A DNA stretch of 64,000 nucleotides from Firmicutes bacterium ASF500 (lineage in GTDB: Bacteria; Bacillota; Clostridia; Oscillospirales; Oscillospiraceae): positions 682,001 through 746,000 of the forward strand of contig CP097573.1 of the NCBI GenBank assembly GCA_000492175.2, in the 5' to 3' direction. Of this stretch, positions 1,046 through 8,806 are shown one piece after another. Below the pieces are notes generated by a model. The model made no database searches and had not been told where the DNA came from. It worked only from the letters and a program-made list of their open reading frames with translations. The translations under genes were made by a program, and so were the position numbers. Positions within the stretch are counted from its first letter, which is position 1. Each line of letters opens with the position of its first letter.

Positions 1046-1621
1046 TTACGCTTGGCTTACCACAAAGGTAGGAATCACGGAGAAGGAATTATTCTCCGGG
1101 ACCTCGGCCCCCAGCGTCCCTACGACATACATGCTGCTGTTGCCATAGGGATTCAGCGACATAACGCTGATTTTCTGCTGGTTATCAATTTGGAGCCATG
1201 TGGTCTGATTTAAGGTGGTGGGCATCTGGTTTGCCAGCGTCTCCAACTGAAAACCAATGGCAATCTGGTTGGGGGAGACGTTTGGACCAGCACTCCATGT
1301 CGTGTTTCCAAGCTTGCTCAGATCCACCGATGTATAGGCCACATCCAGGGTCACGGGGACGCTGGAGTTGTTGGTCACAGTAATGCGGGGAGAGATCACC
1401 TTGTTATCCCCCTCGATACTGCGGCCGACGTGGAACGGAACATAAGTGGGCATTGTGACCGACATGACGCTGGGCACCACGGTGCCCACCATCAGCACTT
1501 CATTGGAGGAGCCGATGGGAACATCGCCAGACTGATAGTTGCCTGCGGCATAAGCGGTGGTCGCAATCAGACTGACAACCAGGATCATTGATAGAAATAC
1601 ACCGGAAAACTTATACTTCAT
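1046..1621 (-). CDS. Secreted protein of unknown function
   Basis: The start at 1621 is chosen because the translation then opens with a classic signal peptide (MKYKF, hydrophobic core, cleavage near TTAYAAG) and has AAAGGAG about ten bases upstream; longer frames lack this. The mature part of about 165 residues is rich in Val, Thr, Ser and Asn, as in beta-sandwich surface proteins, and contains a segment reading ITVTNNSSVPVTLDV that resembles surface or appendage subunits. It is the second gene of a two-gene operon with the membrane-anchored protein at 2201-1671. Expression probably depends on the invertible segment upstream. No family is recognised with certainty. Confidence 0.7.
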   Translation of the reverse strand: MKYKFSGVFLSMILVVSLIATTAYAAGNYQSGDVPIGSSNEVLMVGTVVPSVMSVTMPTYVPFHVGRSIEGDNKVISPRITVTNNSSVPVTLDVAYTSVDLSKLGNTTWSAGPNVSPNQIAIGFQLETLANQMPTTLNQTTWLQIDNQQKISVMSLNPYGNSSMYVVGTLGAEVPENNSFSVIPTFVVSQA

Positions 1622-1670: not shown

Positions 1671-2201
1671 TCAGCTGAGCACCGTGATCTTGATCGCGGC
1701 ACCCGCCTGCCCGATGAAGGAGTGGTCCCCCTCCCGGTAGGCCTTGAAATAAGCTGTAGCCGAATACTCACCTGGTTCCAGTACCTTGTCTAACCGGACG
1801 TTCTCAATGTAAGCGCCCACGGGGATAGCCTTGGACTGGTAGACCAGCTCCTGGGTATCGTCTATGTAGATTTCTACGACAAGCAGCTTGGCGTTGTTCG
1901 CTGGATTTTCCAGCATCAGGTTCCCTTCAGACCCGCCTGATGCAAACACAGGTGTGCTGTTGATGGAAAAGGCAACCATTCCTTCATCCAACTGCTCCTG
2001 AAGCTGGGCCTGGCGCTGGGCTATGTCGACGCCAGGTAAAACGCCCATTGTGGCGTTGTCGTCCAGTGCCAGCGAGTCGTCCATTTTGCGGGTTCCCCCA
2101 CCGAATATCCAGAAGGCGCCTATTCCTATGACCAATAGGAGTCCAATGGCAACGGCAGAAATAATTTGGGTTTTTCGCTTTTGAAGGGCTTCTTTTTCCA
2201 T
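1671..2201 (-). CDS. Membrane-anchored extracytoplasmic protein, unknown function
   Basis: The 176-residue protein has a short charged N-terminus (MEKEALQKRKTQ), one membrane span at about residues 13-34, then a soluble extracytoplasmic domain. The C-terminal half (for example VPVGAYIENV followed by LEPGEYSATAYF) looks like a beta-sandwich. AAAGGTGG lies nine bases before the ATG. It is first in an operon with the secreted protein at 1621-1046 (49-base gap), which suggests the two act together at the cell surface. The only good promoter nearby lies inside the segment bounded by inverted repeats and currently points away. I do not recognise the family. Confidence 0.7.
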   Translation of the reverse strand: MEKEALQKRKTQIISAVAIGLLLVIGIGAFWIFGGGTRKMDDSLALDDNATMGVLPGVDIAQRQAQLQEQLDEGMVAFSINSTPVFASGGSEGNLMLENPANNAKLLVVEIYIDDTQELVYQSKAIPVGAYIENVRLDKVLEPGEYSATAYFKAYREGDHSFIGQAGAAIKITVLS

Positions 2202-2307
2202 AATAAACCACCTTTATCTTTGTTCATAATATTGCGGGCAGGCCTTAACCTTTGTTCGGCCTGCGAGAGGCTGCGGGGTGGAGATGCCGCTGCGCTTTAT
2301 ACCTTTG

Positions 2308-2581
2308 TCACAAATTCCGCAAATTGTCCTGGTGGCGGCCGGATATCCCGTTACAGGAACGTTTTCATATGCGGAAAAAAACCTCGTTAAGGCCCAAAAG
2401 GGCACATAAAAATAAGCCGGGCAAATTTTTCCATTGTCTGGCTTGGTCAGTCGTGTAAAATTTGTGGTGAAGGTCTTGTGTTTCGTTTGCACCTGTGCTA
2501 TGATGATTCCAGTAAGCGGGAGGTTGACGGGGCGAGCCGCCCCTGCCGCAGGTTCCATGTGACAATTTGCGGATTTTGTGA
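2308..2581. repeat. Inverted-repeat-bounded segment, putative invertible promoter switch
   Basis: TCACAAATTCCGCAAATTGTC at 2308-2328 is the reverse complement, with one mismatch, of the 21 bases at 2561-2581. The repeats enclose 232 bp, lie ten bases from the end of a tyrosine recombinase gene and 107 bases upstream of a surface-protein operon. The enclosed DNA contains no gene but does contain a good promoter (2476-2504). This architecture matches recombinase-controlled phase-variable promoters. Inversion itself is inferred. Confidence 0.75.
2476..2504 (+). promoter_or_regulatory. Extended -10 promoter inside the invertible segment, facing away from the operon
   Basis: TTGTGT (2476-2481), a 17-bp spacer and TGC-TATGAT (2496-2504) form an extended -10 promoter. 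As sequenced it reads rightward, antisense to the recombinase. If the segment flips, it would read leftward into the operon starting at 2201. The window therefore appears to hold the OFF orientation. Confidence 0.6.
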
Positions 2582-2591
2582 TTTGGTTATA

Positions 2592-3437
2592 CTACGAGAT
2601 TAAGCCCAGACGGTTCAGCTGCCGGGCGTGCTCCGCTCCTGTGGAGATCAGATAGATCCGAGTAGTCTCGATAGAACTGTGCCCCAGCACATCCGCCAAT
2701 TTTACCACATCCTGATACATCTTGTAGAATGCCTGTGCGAACAGGTGCCGCAAGTTATGGGGAAACACCTTGGACGCGGCCACTCCCGCCCGTTCGCAAA
2801 TACATTTCATCTCGGCCCAGATCTGCCTGCGCGAAAGCCCCTTTCCGTTTCTGGTGAGGAAAACCTCACCGGAGACGATTTTTTGCTTTTTGGCATACTT
2901 TTTCAGCTTCCGGCACAGTTTTACAGGAATCAAGATCGTGCGTATTTTGCCCTTCAGGCTGATCTCTGCCCTCCCCGCATTCACTGCCTCCACCGTGATA
3001 TATCGGACCTCTGACACCCGTATACCTGTGGCGCAGATGGTTTCCATCAAAAGAGCCAGCCGGGTCTTGCCTAAGCTGTTCGCCGTCTCCAGCAAGCGAA
3101 AATAATCCGGCCTGCTCAACTCTCTTTCTGTCCCGCGGAACAGCCTCCGCTGGATACGCAGATACTTTACGCGGCACTCATCTCTGCCCAAAAATCCGAG
3201 GAATTTATTCAGTGCCGACAGCTTGGAGTTTACGGTTCCTGGGCATAGCCCTTCCGTCTGAAGCTGCTCCTTCCATCTGGTACAGGTTTCTTTTCCCACG
3301 GGCCGCTCGCCCAACCATGCGGCAAAGCTTCGAACATCCCTCAAATATTTGTCAATCGTGCCGGATACTCGTTCCTCAGATTGCAAATAATACTGAAATT
3401 CATTGATTTGACTGCTCGTAATGGTGTTGTGGTCCAT
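2592..3437 (-). CDS. Tyrosine recombinase (putative DNA invertase)
   Basis: The 281-residue protein has an N-terminal SAM-like core-binding domain (about residues 8-90) and a catalytic domain. The expected catalytic set is visible: R140 in TGIRVSE, H227 and R230 in PHNLRH, H253 in LGHSS and nucleophile Y262 in TTRIYL. This length and compactness are typical of XerC/D-like or integron-like recombinases that act on short sites rather than of large phage integrases. AAGGAGG precedes the ATG. The gene ends ten bases from a 21-bp inverted repeat, which suggests the repeat is its substrate. It could instead be an island integrase, but no attachment duplication is seen here. Confidence 0.85.
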   Translation of the reverse strand: MDHNTITSSQINEFQYYLQSEERVSGTIDKYLRDVRSFAAWLGERPVGKETCTRWKEQLQTEGLCPGTVNSKLSALNKFLGFLGRDECRVKYLRIQRRLFRGTERELSRPDYFRLLETANSLGKTRLALLMETICATGIRVSEVRYITVEAVNAGRAEISLKGKIRTILIPVKLCRKLKKYAKKQKIVSGEVFLTRNGKGLSRRQIWAEMKCICERAGVAASKVFPHNLRHLFAQAFYKMYQDVVKLADVLGHSSIETTRIYLISTGAEHARQLNRLGLIS

Positions 3438-3837: not shown

Positions 3838-3892
3838 TTGACAAGGCCGCAGGAGCATGCTATACTTAAGTACATACTTAAGTATAGCATGC
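3838..3892 (+). promoter_or_regulatory. dnd operon promoter with palindromic operator
   Basis: TTGACA (3838-3843), a 17-bp spacer and TATACT (3861-3866) form a near-consensus promoter. The -10 lies inside a perfect 18-bp inverted repeat (3855-3872 and 3875-3892, two-base centre). A dimeric repressor bound there would block RNA polymerase. DndB is a known repressor of dnd operons in some bacteria and is the first gene, so autorepression is a reasonable inference. Confidence 0.85.
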
Positions 3893-3910
3893 CTGTTTTA
3901 CGAGGTGCCT

Positions 3911-4975
3911 ATGAATTTTACATATCATTTTCCTGCGGTACGGGGAATCCAAGCTGATAAGGAGTATTATATCTCCATGGTCCCGCTGAAGCTGCTATCC
4001 AGACTGTTTCCCTCAGAGGAGGAAATTATCCTGCCTGAATTTCGGGCTCAACGGCGGATCAATGAAACACGCATTCCTGAAATCAAACGCTATATTCTGC
4101 AAAACCGGGACACTTACGTGTTCTCCGCACTCTCCGCTTCGATTGACGGGAAATTCCAGTTTACGCCCTTTATGGATACGGATGTGGGGATTTTCGAAGT
4201 GGATATGGAGGCTGTCTTCCTGATTAATGATGGACAGCACCGCAAAGCGGCTATCGAGGCGGCAATGCTGGAAGATCCTTCTTTGGAGAAGGAAACGATC
4301 TCTATTGTTTTTTTCAGCGACGAGGGCTTGTCCCGCAGCCAGCAAATGTTTACAGACCTGAACAAACACGCTGTTCGGACGTCCAACTCCCTGTCTACAC
4401 TCTACGATACCCGGGATGAGATCGCGGTAGCCACCAAGAATGTCATTGAGTCGGTTCCTTTCTTCCAAAAATACACAGATAAAGAACGGGATATACTGGG
4501 CAAGAATTCCTCGCATTTGTTCACCCTGAACGTAATCTATAAGGCAAACCAGAAGATTTTACATAAAGACAGCTGCTCCGATGAGGATGTGACATTTCTG
4601 CTCAAATTTTGGAATCTGGTGGCGGACAATATCGTTGAATGGCGGGAGGTATTGGAAAAATCTCTCACAAAGAAAGCCTTACGGGAAAATTATATCGTGA
4701 CATTGGCAATCACCCTTAACGCGTTTGGACGAATCGGCCGCTGTTTCTATGACGATCGGGCTTTGAATATGGAAGATCACCTGGTAAGGCTCCGGAAAAT
4801 CGACTGGCTGCGCTCAAACCGCAAGTGGGTTGGGCGCACTATTCGGGAGAACGGAAAGGTGTTGACCAGCGAAGAGTCCGCTGCCCTGACCTGCGCCCAG
4901 ATCAAGCAGGAGATCGGCCTGCCTCTGTCCAAGGAAGAGCGGCAAAAAGAGAGACAACTAACGGAGAAGGCGTAA
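3911..4975 (+). CDS. dndB: DNA sulfur modification protein DndB
   Basis: The 354-residue protein carries the family's DGQHR motif (residues 107-111, in LINDGQHRKA) and the typical downstream segment with DLNKHAVRTS. DndB is not required for the sulfur-for-oxygen swap but modulates modification and represses the operon in characterised systems. The ATG at 3911 is chosen because it is preceded by GAGGTG and lies after the expected transcription start near 3873; an earlier ATG at 3857 falls within the operator. It is the first gene of a tightly packed dndBCDE operon, with one base between its stop and the next ATG. Confidence 0.92.
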   Translation: MNFTYHFPAVRGIQADKEYYISMVPLKLLSRLFPSEEEIILPEFRAQRRINETRIPEIKRYILQNRDTYVFSALSASIDGKFQFTPFMDTDVGIFEVDMEAVFLINDGQHRKAAIEAAMLEDPSLEKETISIVFFSDEGLSRSQQMFTDLNKHAVRTSNSLSTLYDTRDEIAVATKNVIESVPFFQKYTDKERDILGKNSSHLFTLNVIYKANQKILHKDSCSDEDVTFLLKFWNLVADNIVEWREVLEKSLTKKALRENYIVTLAITLNAFGRIGRCFYDDRALNMEDHLVRLRKIDWLRSNRKWVGRTIRENGKVLTSEESAALTCAQIKQEIGLPLSKEERQKERQLTEKA

Positions 4976-4976
4976 T

Positions 4977-6350
4977 ATGACAGATATGAATGAATTTCAA
5001 GCGTTTGAAGATATTATACAGGAAATGTCCATGGTTTACCAGCATGACCGCCGTCCATGGATGATCGGTTTTAGCGGAGGCAAGGATTCCACCCTGCTTT
5101 GCTGTTTGGTATTTGAGATGCTGAAGCGTCTTTCCCCGGCGCAGCGCTGCAAGACAGTCTACATTGTTTCATCTGATACTATGGTAGAAAACCCCATTGT
5201 GCGGGACTATATGTGCAGAATGTCGGATATGATTGGGGAACAGGGAAAAGAATTGAATGTCAAGTCGGATATCATCTACCCAAAGGTGGAGGATTCGTTT
5301 TGGTGCCGGGTTATTGGGTTGGGTTATCCTACGCCAGAGGCTCCTGGATTTCGCTGGTGTACGGATCGTCTTAAAATCCGCCCTATGAACGCCTATATAT
5401 TAAATACAATAAAAAACAACAACGAAGTAATCTTGCTTTTAGGGGTTCGTAAGGCCGAGAGTACCTATCGTGCGAACAACATCCGCGAACGGGAAATCGA
5501 GGGAAAGGTGCTAGTTCCTCATAGTGATATTGATAACGCCTATGTGTACAATCCGATGACGGAGCTTCCCAACGAGGCTGTTTGGAAATACCTGCTGCGG
5601 GGTGACGCGAAATCTCCTTGGGGATCGGACAACAAGTATCTGTTTTCCCTGTATCAAGGCGAGAACTTGGGTGAGGAACAAAGCGTGTTAGGAGAGCTGG
5701 ACGAGGAAAAAATTCCGGTTACCGGGAATTCCAGATTTGGATGCTGGATATGCACGATGGTCAAGGAGGATAAATCCCTAAACGCTTTCATCAACCGCGG
5801 CGAGACCTGGCTTAAGCCCTTGCGTCAGTATCGCAACTGGCTTTTGGAGCTTCGTACAGTGCCGGGCGCACGGGAATACAAGCGCCGGAACGGTGCGATG
5901 TATCGCAAGCAAAATGGCACTTTGGGGGAAGGCCCTTTTACGCTGGAAAGCAGAAAGAAGATTTTGCGCAAGCTTCTACTGCTGGAGCAGGAGACAAAGC
6001 TGCCTCTTATTACCATGGAAGAGCTGAAGCATATTGATATACTGTGGGATCAGGAGGGCGATTTGAGCCGCAGAAGCCTGGTAGACCTCTATGCCGAGGT
6101 GACAGGCTCCAAGCTCCCGTGGGATACGTATAAAGTCCCTGTCTTTCCGGAAGAAACCATTCGGGAAATCAAGCGGCTGTGCGAGGAGAATCAAATTGAG
6201 TTCGAGCTGATATCCAAGCTGATTATAGAGATCAACGCCAATAAGAATTACACAAAAAGTGCTCTGGTAACAAAAGCCTTTGACCGCATTATGAATCAAG
6301 GATGGCTACACTTTAAGAGCATCGAGAAGGGTTTGCAAAATGAGGATTGA
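4977..6350 (+). CDS. dndC: DNA phosphorothioation protein DndC, PAPS-reductase-like
   Basis: The 457-residue protein has the ATP-pyrophosphatase P-loop SGGKDST (residues 33-39) of the PAPS reductase/DndC group, and a Cys pair (C256, C259 in FGCWICTMVKED) likely to be part of the [4Fe-4S] ligand set known for DndC. It is thought to activate the DNA backbone and deliver sulfur from the DndA or IscS cysteine desulfurase. Its 3' end overlaps dndD by 11 bases, so translation is coupled. The length is slightly below that of some characterised DndC proteins but all key motifs are present. No cysteine desulfurase gene is found in this window. Confidence 0.93.
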   Translation: MTDMNEFQAFEDIIQEMSMVYQHDRRPWMIGFSGGKDSTLLCCLVFEMLKRLSPAQRCKTVYIVSSDTMVENPIVRDYMCRMSDMIGEQGKELNVKSDIIYPKVEDSFWCRVIGLGYPTPEAPGFRWCTDRLKIRPMNAYILNTIKNNNEVILLLGVRKAESTYRANNIREREIEGKVLVPHSDIDNAYVYNPMTELPNEAVWKYLLRGDAKSPWGSDNKYLFSLYQGENLGEEQSVLGELDEEKIPVTGNSRFGCWICTMVKEDKSLNAFINRGETWLKPLRQYRNWLLELRTVPGAREYKRRNGAMYRKQNGTLGEGPFTLESRKKILRKLLLLEQETKLPLITMEELKHIDILWDQEGDLSRRSLVDLYAEVTGSKLPWDTYKVPVFPEETIREIKRLCEENQIEFELISKLIIEINANKNYTKSALVTKAFDRIMNQGWLHFKSIEKGLQNED

Positions 6351-8439
6351 CCAAATTGCCCTGTATAATTTTGGATCATATGAGGGAGAAGCCATATTCG
6401 ACACGCGGACGGATGAAGCAAGGACCATTATTCTTGTGGGCGGGAAGAACGGCGCGGGAAAAACGACTCTCTTTACCGCAATGCGCATCTGCCTTTACGG
6501 CTATATGAGTATGGGCTACAAAAGCCCAAACGCGTACTATATCCGCGCGATTGAAAAGTTTTTGAATCACAGTGCAAAGCTGCAGCGCCCTACCCAGGCA
6601 TATGTCAAAATACATATCTCTCTGAGCAACGGACGAGAACCGGAGCACTATTTGCTGACACGCGCCTGGATGATAGAGGAAGCTCTGTCAGAGACTTTCA
6701 GCGTAGAAAAAAACGGCGTTGGGATGACCGCTGATGAGACGGCTGATTTTGAAAAATATTTGTTCTCTCTCATTCCTCCGGAGCTTTTTGACCTCTACTT
6801 TTTTGATGGTGAGAAAATTGCAGATTTTTTCCTGGATGAGGGTGGCAGTGCTCGAATCAAAAACGCATTTTTAACACTATGCGGCTATGATGTTTTTGAT
6901 ATCATGCTTAAAAACTTCAAGCGGCTCTATTCAGGCAGCAATAAGGCCACACCGGACTTTGACAACTATCTTGAGGCAAAGGAAGCCTCCGAACAAGCTC
7001 ACGCGAAGTTACAGGAACTGTCCGCCCAGCTTCAGGAATGCGACATAGAGCAAGTCGTCTGTGCGGCGGACATCAGCGCACTGGAAAAAAATTATCGTCA
7101 AAAGGGTGGAGTCACGCAAGAGGAGTGGACCCAAAAGCTGCTGCTCCAAAAAGAAGAAGAAAAAAAGCGGGACAATTGGAATGCGCTTCTTAAAAAATGG
7201 GCAAATGAGCTGATTCCTTTTTTAATGATTCAAGATCAAGTCCTGTCTGTGAAGAAACAAATCGAAGAGGAGACCAGCAATCAGAAATACCGGAACTTTT
7301 GCGAAGTTCTGGATACGCCGGAAATCAGCAAACTCCTAAAGCAGCAGCTGCCTGCGCTGCGTGAAATTGTGCAAAAACAGCTCAAGGGCGGAGAACCGCC
7401 GTTGCTGAATCTCTCCTTCGAACAGAGCGCGGTTGTTCTTGGGCAGATTAACCAAATTTTGAATTTTGATGTTGGAAAAGTGGCCAAGTGCAAACAGGCC
7501 ATTAAAGGCTCCCTGGCCTCGAGTGCTGCTGTGCGGCAGGAATTGGAAAACAGCAGTCTTTCCGCCGTACAGGAGTACATGACGAAGCAGGTAAGACTCT
7601 ATGAGCGAAAAACTCAGCTGTTGGAGCAAAAAGCGAACCTGGAAAGACTGATTCCCAAGCAGGATAAGGTGGTCAAGCAAGCGGATGAGATACTGTCCCA
7701 AAAAAAAGCAGTTCTGGAAGAAGAATTAAAAAAGGCCTCTATTCACGATATCTCTGCCCGCGCAGTTATTATGCTGGATCAATTACAGCATAGTCTTTAT
7801 CGCCATCAGGTGGAAAGAGTAGAATCCATTTTCCGGCAGGAAATTAACATATTGATGCGTAAAAAGCGATTTATTGATGATATCCGCATTGACGAACAAT
7901 TTAATATCCATATCTACCGGATAGAGGACCTCAGCACCGCAACCTTGGCGGATGCGCTTTCAGCTAATTCTCCCGACCAAATGCGCGCACTTTTGGGGGA
8001 TGCGGCTATGGAGCAGCTGCAAAAGGTCACCAATACGAACGACCTGGACGGTATGGCGTTTTACTGCCGTTGCTGTAAGCAGGATACGCTGACTTTGCCA
8101 ATCGAAATTGACAAAGCGTCTTTATCAAATGGTGAGAAACAAATTTTCATCATGGCGCTCTACTATTCGCTGGTGCAGTTATGCGGGCACGAAATTCCGT
8201 TTATTATTGATACGCCCTTTGCGCGGATTGATACAGAGCACCGGCGCAATATTTCTCAGCATTTTTTCAGGGAGCTGCGGGGGCAAGTGTTTATCTTGTC
8301 TACAAATGAAGAGATTGACTCCGACCATCTGCAAATTTTGAAAGACCGGATAGCATCGGTCTACCTTTTGGAAAATGTGCAAAATAAACATACGGAGGTC
8401 GTAAAGAACTCCTACTTCGAGGTGCCCAATGGTTTTTAA
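6340..8439 (+). CDS. dndD: DNA sulfur modification ATPase DndD, SMC/Rad50-like
   Basis: The 699-residue ABC/SMC-type ATPase has an N-terminal Walker A GKNGAGKT (35-42), a long coiled-coil middle (about 210-520), then ABC signature LSNGEKQ (595-601) and Walker B FIID (621-624). DndD is proposed to nick or reshape DNA for sulfur insertion together with DndC and DndE. An unusual Cys cluster, CRCC (576-579), precedes the signature and may bind metal. The gene overlaps both dndC and dndE by 11 bases. A Rad50-like repair ATPase is excluded by context. Confidence 0.93.
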   Translation: MRIDQIALYNFGSYEGEAIFDTRTDEARTIILVGGKNGAGKTTLFTAMRICLYGYMSMGYKSPNAYYIRAIEKFLNHSAKLQRPTQAYVKIHISLSNGREPEHYLLTRAWMIEEALSETFSVEKNGVGMTADETADFEKYLFSLIPPELFDLYFFDGEKIADFFLDEGGSARIKNAFLTLCGYDVFDIMLKNFKRLYSGSNKATPDFDNYLEAKEASEQAHAKLQELSAQLQECDIEQVVCAADISALEKNYRQKGGVTQEEWTQKLLLQKEEEKKRDNWNALLKKWANELIPFLMIQDQVLSVKKQIEEETSNQKYRNFCEVLDTPEISKLLKQQLPALREIVQKQLKGGEPPLLNLSFEQSAVVLGQINQILNFDVGKVAKCKQAIKGSLASSAAVRQELENSSLSAVQEYMTKQVRLYERKTQLLEQKANLERLIPKQDKVVKQADEILSQKKAVLEEELKKASIHDISARAVIMLDQLQHSLYRHQVERVESIFRQEINILMRKKRFIDDIRIDEQFNIHIYRIEDLSTATLADALSANSPDQMRALLGDAAMEQLQKVTNTNDLDGMAFYCRCCKQDTLTLPIEIDKASLSNGEKQIFIMALYYSLVQLCGHEIPFIIDTPFARIDTEHRRNISQHFFRELRGQVFILSTNEEIDSDHLQILKDRIASVYLLENVQNKHTEVVKNSYFEVPNGF

Positions 8440-8806
8440 AATCAAAACATCGGAAAAAACAGAGGATATCTTTATCAAAATAGGAGCAAGCATCAACTAC
8501 GCCCCTTTTGTTCTTGCGAAACTGGCAATTTCCATGTCTCTGAAAAGTGAGAAGCCCTTGGAGCCCGCAGATTATAAAACGGATGCCAAGGGCTTGGAGA
8601 TGAATCGTCAGACCATCACCGGCGAGTGGGATACTCTGTACAAATGTCTTATTGAATTGTCTGAGGGACATCCGATTGATGATGATGAATATTTCCAAAA
8701 ATACCTGAAGGCACATTTGGACCGCGGAGCAAAACTGCTCTATAGCGAATTTCAGTATAATGGTGATTTCCTTCTTGCATTACTCAGCAACAAAAAGGGC
8801 TTGTAA
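8429..8806 (+). CDS. dndE: DNA sulfur modification protein DndE
   Basis: The 125-residue protein has the family's conserved C-terminal part around NRQTITGEWDTLYKCLI. DndE from other bacteria is a small tetrameric protein that binds nicked DNA and is essential for phosphorothioation. The length is normal. It closes the operon; the next 50 bases have no clear terminator and lead into a transposase remnant. No dndFGH or other phosphorothioate-sensing restriction genes follow, so the system here appears to be modification-only unless partners lie elsewhere. Confidence 0.88.
   Translation: MVFKIKTSEKTEDIFIKIGASINYAPFVLAKLAISMSLKSEKPLEPADYKTDAKGLEMNRQTITGEWDTLYKCLIELSEGHPIDDDEYFQKYLKAHLDRGAKLLYSEFQYNGDFLLALLSNKKGL

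Follow-up and report, generated by a model that had tools for sequence, protein, structure and literature searches.

The region between positions 2308 and 2581 of the window (the whole stretch of 64,000 nucleotides that was analysed) appears to be a phase-variation switch. We consider it highly probable (about 0.92) that its promoter-bearing segment is flipped by the tyrosine recombinase encoded at 2592-3437, with the transcript of the OFF state probably being stopped inside the reading frame of that recombinase. The original prediction of an invertible promoter is strongly supported, since relatives of the recombinase share the arms, the identity of the core between the arms, the promoter and both orientations, and since a paralogous switch shows an exact inversion. 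The features of the locus are as follows.

1046-1621, minus strand: second putatively switched gene, 191 aa; signal peptide by eye; predicted beta-sandwich
1671-2201, minus strand: first putatively switched gene (176 aa), with a membrane helix at the N-terminus by eye and, below cut-off, a weak similarity to DUF6550
2202-2307, minus strand: operon leader, from the arm to the first start codon; AAAGGTGG as ribosome-binding site by eye; no promoter listed
2308-2328, plus strand: operon-side arm; putative recombination site ACAAATT-CCGC-AAATTGT
2329-2560, no strand: putative invertible segment, 232 bp, between the arms; its paralogous counterpart occurs in this genome in two copies that are exact inversions of each other
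2413-2445, no strand: hairpin of the segment, behind the promoter; many relatives have a terminator-like element here, between recombinase and operon
2476-2504, plus strand: promoter TTGTGT-N17-(TGc)TATGAT, pointing at the recombinase in the sequenced copy (OFF)
2511-2885, plus strand: predicted OFF-state antisense RNA, about 370 nt, from promoter and terminator
2561-2581, minus strand: recombinase-side arm; putative recombination site ACAAAAT-CCGC-AAATTGT, with the core CCGC of the other arm in inverted sense
2592-3437, minus strand: tyrosine recombinase, 281 aa, presumed invertase; R140, K164, H227, R230, H253 and Y262 all present
2846-2884, plus strand: element within the recombinase reading frame that resembles an antisense terminator, with a 14-bp stem and a 4-nt loop ahead of ATTTTTT

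The arms were found as predicted: two 21-nt inverted repeats with one mismatch (95% complementary) enclose 232 nt, and ten bases (2582-2591) separate the recombinase stop codon from the nearer arm. The distance from the other arm to the ATG of the operon is 106 bases (2202-2307), not 107 as had been given. When the 64-kb window was searched with an 18-mer of the arm at up to three mismatches, the two matches were the arms themselves, and 0.07 were expected from 100 dinucleotide shuffles. Across the 3.67-Mb genome, the 13-mer GACAATTTGCGGA occurs exactly only at the two arms, and with one mismatch at four further places. In their layout the arms look like sites of tyrosine recombinases, with half-sites like ACARAAT/ATTYTGT flanking a 4-bp core.

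Relatives were gathered by protein similarity of the recombinase alone, not through the repeats. The sources were 64 genomes of the genus, its own genome included (30 loci taken), and a collection of 84,980 species genomes (the best 80 of 155 loci). Many of the relatives belong to Oscillospiraceae or related gut Clostridia. Identical recombinases were merged (L048, L057, L095, L109, L038, L040, L041), and the arm survey did not include L039 and L042-L047, which had less than 45% identity or no match. The set comprised 107 distinct recombinases, that of the window included, which were 50-100% identical. Ninety-three of them had at least 400 bp downstream; the other 14 had less and stand outside the arm test.

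Inverted arms lie just 3' of the recombinase gene in 80 of the 93 testable distinct members (window included), and no scored inverted repeat was present in the remaining 13; shuffles gave 0.05 for all 93 loci together. In the 80 loci, the arms enclose 186-380 bp, and the distance from the last matched codon of the recombinase to the arm is 0-117 nt, with 73 of the 80 at 0-22 nt. When pairs of half-sites were sought with the core ignored, they were found in 87 of the 93 loci and absent in six, compared with 1/93 in mononucleotide-shuffled sequence. The cores played no part in choosing these sites. The 4-bp core was nevertheless identical in inverted sense in 86 of the 87 pairs, the window among them, with L099 as the exception. 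There are 42 distinct cores, and dealing them among the loci gave an expectation of 3.8 such identities, with a maximum of 11 in 1000 trials. Strand exchange between two inverted sites needs such an identity. Judged from these sequence comparisons, the repeats are taken to be sites of the recombinase that share a crossover core. This core rule may also explain why every recombinase acts at its own locus. More than one scored arm pair was seen beside the recombinase in ten loci (L028, L029, L031, L032, L062, L081, L089, L102, L106, L111), where the extra pairs suggest a third recombination site and alternative segments.

The recombinase has a SAM-like N-terminus and a Phage_integrase domain. 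All 106 family members in the alignment, that of the window among them, keep the catalytic K, H, R, H and Y; the first R is kept in 105, L080 having Q instead. Two known classes were considered for this enzyme and rejected. As a housekeeping XerC/XerD recombinase, it scored 120.3 bits with the NCBIfam XerD model (cut-off 329.6) and 108.2 bits with the XerC model (cut-off 335.15). As a short tyrosine-type DNA invertase of the fim type, it scored 33.7 and 28.9 bits with PRK09870 and PRK09871, which we take to be the FimB/FimE-like NCBIfam models (cut-offs 221 and 222).

The extended -10 promoter of the original prediction lies within the segment on the plus strand, with TTGTGT at 2476-2481, a 17-nt spacer and TGc-TATGAT, the hexamer being at 2499-2504. 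The -35 box is weak (3/6), and the promoter was not listed by the generic scan at its threshold. In a separate promoter scan, the element at 2476-2504 had the top score of the segment, and relatives show the same arrangement; the consensus across the aligned segments of the family is TTG, 17 nt, TGnTATAAT. The segment is an inverton in the sense of a short promoter-bearing stretch between inverted repeats. A mechanically called ORF of 114 aa (2214-2558, minus strand) crosses it, and nothing came to light that would speak for its being a gene. The generic scan listed no promoter on the minus strand of 2202-2307, in agreement with the earlier statement that the operon has no other good promoter. 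The sequenced copy had also been called OFF. This call is supported by promoter direction only, the promoter facing the recombinase.

Both orientations occur in the family. In an all-against-all comparison of the inner segments of the 80 loci, 60 were oriented like the window and 20 were opposite; the enclosed promoter faces the recombinase in 60 loci and the operon in 20. One ON copy (L038) is absent from this count because its recombinase was merged as identical. Promoter direction, found without this comparison, matched the alignment-based orientation in 71 of the 74 decisive loci, with six ties. The two disagreed in L083, L105 and L127, and alignment support is thin for several orientations (L115, L127, L106). 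On the recombinase tree, the minority orientation amounts to 19 changes for 20 tips and is not clustered (shuffled mean about 18), and at least eight changes are forced by well-supported branches. The 19 changes for 20 minority tips indicate that orientation changes faster than the genes diverge.

An exact inversion was found in the same genome. Two paralogous switches lie on G000:C1 at about 537 kb and 1,329 kb. Their recombinases are identical to each other and 69% identical to the focal recombinase. On the recombinase side, the two loci match without a difference for 960 bp, as they do on the operon side for the 1251 bp compared. The segment between their arms is identical at 218 of 218 positions as the reverse complement and at 28% in the forward sense; only one of the two copies faces its operon. 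The pair thus represents an inversion that runs exactly from arm to arm, next to a recombinase closely related to the focal one. Inversion of the focal segment itself, with the adjacent recombinase as the responsible enzyme, is inferred. The paralogous switches sit in a duplicated region of about 99% identity, with further pieces of 12.0 and 4.3 kb. By eye, this region (L181-L184; G000:C1 about 519-538 kb and 1.329-1.348 Mb) carries sugar-biosynthesis-like genes.

The segment also contains a hairpin. In the window, its folding energy is -19.9 kcal/mol on the plus strand (z -3.89) and -9.2 kcal/mol on the minus strand (z -0.62). The latter is no better than shuffles, yet the T-rich tail is on this side. 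Among the 80 segments, the best internal hairpin beats its own shuffles in 69. A scan with a fixed score, which has no shuffle control of its own, passed 78 of the 80, and T-rich tails accompany these 78 hairpins on one side in 51, on the other side in 36 and on both in 30. The hairpin may be a terminator that separates recombinase transcription from operon transcription, a reading that is weak for the copy in the window.

The proposed mechanism is as follows. The tyrosine recombinase would join the two inverted arms at their common 4-bp core, and the 232-bp segment would flip. In the ON state, the promoter would fire out across the arm on the operon side and transcribe the two operon genes (2201 to 1046); after inversion the start would lie near 2378, giving the mRNA a predicted leader of about 177 nt. 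Transcription leaking from the recombinase into the operon would probably be stopped by the segment hairpin. In the OFF state, which is the sequenced one, the segment promoter would fire toward the recombinase from a predicted start about 80 bases from the recombinase stop. The transcript would enter the recombinase gene in the antisense direction and would probably be halted at 2846-2884. Since it would end inside the reading frame, one promoter would have two outputs, operon mRNA in the ON state and a short antisense RNA of the recombinase in the OFF state. OFF cells are accordingly predicted, from promoter and terminator, to make an antisense RNA of about 370 nt over the 3' end of the recombinase gene; the switch promoter, as oriented in these cells, would be its natural source.

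The position of the antisense element is nearly fixed in the family. A strict terminator scan of 80 recombinase genes found terminators on the antisense strand in 21 genes and on the sense strand in one, elsewhere in the gene. Nineteen of the 21 antisense terminators are 244-251 nt from the gene end, one is at 261 and one at 548. Antisense regulation of the recombinase and head-on insulation are both possible roles. There is close to an even chance that the switch is real and that the terminator serves insulation only, shielding the recombinase promoter and the remainder of the gene from head-on transcription, with the RNA having no regulatory role. What is conserved is a hairpin of the antisense RNA, as insulation would have it, and the distance of 0-22 nt from the last matched codon to the arm in 73 of the 80 loci leaves little intergenic space for a terminator. 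However, a stop near the 3' end would serve insulation better, and the hairpin starts some 250 nt into the gene. Its nearly fixed site in 19 of the 21 strict loci, moreover, leaves a defined overlap with the recombinase mRNA. The regulatory proposal, which we put forward tentatively and at less than even odds, is that throughout the family an OFF antisense RNA of fixed length lowers the recombinase and slows exit from the OFF state, so that orientation would be sensed via RNA; in sister loci, an apparently dead recombinase paralog, which as the first switched gene would be made only in the ON state, may oppose this. If this is true, the in-frame antisense terminator would be a built-in, orientation-dependent control of switching.

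It is also conceivable, though unlikely, that the focal copy is a locked switch, descended from a working one and no longer flipping in this species. OFF, with the promoter facing the recombinase, is the state of the window and of all five nearest relatives (L008, L009, L049, L050, L051), and the inverted orientation was seen in none of these six members of the focal subclade. This uniform orientation, the mismatch between the arms and the weak -35 box are in line with a locked copy. The catalytic residues, however, are kept throughout the subclade, the sole exception among the 106 members (L080) being outside it. The core identity is also kept in each member although the letters differ (CCGC, TCAT, TCGC). 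In addition, given the 3:1 bias of the family, six of six in the OFF orientation is unremarkable (about 0.18). A switch that still flips is therefore the reading that we prefer.

The antisense hairpin might be a by-product of constraints on protein and codons, since its codons encode the conserved motif SGEIFLTR. This was compared with nulls in which the codons were shuffled. Against synonymous-codon shuffles, the antisense fold has z < -2 in 83 of 106 genes (mean -3.13), and the sense strand folds less well under the same null (39/106, mean -1.59); L102 was excluded from the antisense tests because of an internal stop. Among the non-redundant members (<65% mutual identity), 14 of 22 have z < -2 (mean -2.62). 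None of 23 control recombinases does (mean -0.25); 20 of these controls are from the genus at about 30-33% identity, and three others are from the same genome as the window. A sliding scan along the gene in 36 members showed no other stretch that stands out. The pairs of the stem form in 1295 of 1484 cells, compared with 1045 +/- 15 in the codon null that keeps the amino acids. Among the mispairs, G-U is above the null (254 and 228, respectively) and A-C is below it (41 and 85), as expected if an antisense RNA folds.

A simple terminator rule gave a less one-sided picture. It is satisfied by 87 of the 106 genes, against 43.8 (maximum 54) in a null that draws on the codons of the region, and the 43.8 null calls mean that the amino acids and the codons usual for them account for part of the hairpin signal. 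The T-tract has 7 T in 10 in the window. Across the family, its T content exceeds a null from the codons of the gene itself (9.92 and 8.52 T in 18, respectively), and there is no excess over the region-codon null (7.14 and 7.03). L031-L036 have weaker stems at this site. Since the pairing and folding exceed what the encoded protein and codons provide, and since the signal is confined to one stretch and is stronger on the antisense strand, we regard a mere by-product as very improbable and favour a conserved antisense hairpin. As for the recombinase being the integrase of a mobile element and the repeats being relics of its attachment sites, the Phage_integrase and SAM-like domains are present and integrases often adjoin their sites, but the repeats are inverted, not direct, lie 186-380 bp apart with a conserved promoter between them and enclose a segment that is inverted between two paralogous copies, so that this idea is hardly credible.

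The operon had been described as encoding surface proteins. One membrane segment and one signal peptide were recognized by eye, and some sister loci carry S-layer or cell-wall cargo; this much of the description stood, and the surface role itself is likely only. In the model of the 191-aa protein, a helix at 5-26 coincides with the signal peptide seen by eye, and the matches of its predicted beta-sandwich are too weak to name a family. The first mechanically chosen ORF past the far arm reads away from the arm in 59 of the 73 loci with at least 1200 bp available. In 86 operon proteins chosen from 100 (two of the 86 being those of the window), Pfam identified Listeria-Bacteroides repeats in 11, S-layer homology domains in 10, DUF4379 treble-clef domains in 10, recombinase-like N-termini in 10, and Response_reg and GGDEF in two each. 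Among the 64 genus genomes and a 400-genome sample of the family, both cargo genes and the recombinase occur together in all five genomes found to have a copy of at least 70% identity. Near distant cargo copies (32-44% identity, L133-L158), no recombinase of the focal family was present within the stretch examined; secreted-looking ORFs (by eye) lie beside them in L133, L138 and L146.

The first switched gene differs among the relatives. It is recombinase-like in L014, L015, L026, L037, L054, L061, L066, L068, L070, L071 and L098. Nine of these proteins are longer than 270 aa, and all nine are without the catalytic lysine, both histidines and the tyrosine. Such a protein is perhaps a feedback regulator made only in the ON state. 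A DUF4379-like first switched gene or an AP2-like region (by eye) was noted in L011, L065, L072, L087, L090, L097, L101 and others, and in L028, L080 and L124; several of these genes precede one for a large secreted protein. In L031-L035, a distant subclade of the recombinase, the switched gene opens with a response-regulator-like domain, and the switch may control a signalling enzyme there.

Beyond the recombinase, an operon for phosphorothioation (DndB-DndC-DndD-DndE, 3857-8806, plus strand) starts beside the recombinase gene. A perfect palindrome of 18 bp at 3855-3892 shares bases with the consensus promoter of the Dnd operon (3838-3866) and is possibly the operator of that operon.

The locus lies in class Clostridia and has an adjacent tyrosine recombinase, as do the loci of hCom2 inverton group 139 and invertase group 35. 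According to PMC11892184 (2025), inverton group 139 is linked to tyrosine-type recombinase invertase group 35, 32 of its 33 invertons are in Clostridia, and flipping is supported by reads, including in Intestinimonas butyriciproducens DSM 26588 and Clostridium sp. D5. As described there, group 139 is also a short inverton whose neighbouring tyrosine recombinase is not positioned for transcription from it, and another strain of I. butyriciproducens, An565, carries members of the focal recombinase family. It is likely that the focal family is that of group 139. In our judgement, which recombinase flips which switch and what sets the ON/OFF bias are pending questions for many gut invertons; this family offers recombinase, site, core and promoter side by side in dozens of genomes.

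The switch itself is ordinary, since invertible promoters are known, and the antisense element is provisionally the new part. In the main text of PMC11892184, the words 'antisense', 'crossover' and 'core sequence' are absent, and 'terminator' appears once, as future work. Antisense passages in PMC8777976 and PMC7446863 concern gene silencing methods and general Rho effects. No paper on an antisense terminator inside an inverton recombinase was found by title or opening of the abstract in a search that most subscription journals lay beyond. Since literature on fim antisense exists and the search had this scope, the novelty of the antisense element is provisional.

Among the known systems, the cwpV and flagellar switches of Clostridium difficile (RecV) resemble the focal switch in being clostridial surface phase variation with an Xer-like tyrosine recombinase. 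As given in PMC2784873, cwpV has imperfect 21-bp repeats 195 bp apart, its promoter is outside the inverted region, and a terminator was proposed in the OFF transcript. A switch of the RecV/cwpV type was rejected here, since the focal promoter is inside the segment. RecV, moreover, acts on several sites (PMC5903667), whereas the 13-mer of the focal arms is unique to the two arms in the genome. The fim switch of Escherichia coli (fimS with FimB/FimE) is similar in its invertible promoter, short inverted repeats and recombinase genes alongside. FimB and FimE are short recombinases; the focal recombinase, in contrast, has 281 aa with a SAM-like domain. The 3' end of the fimE transcript depends on orientation, and a Rho-dependent terminator lies downstream of fimE (PMC2784873). 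At the focal locus, the terminator-like element lies instead in the antisense direction inside the recombinase gene.
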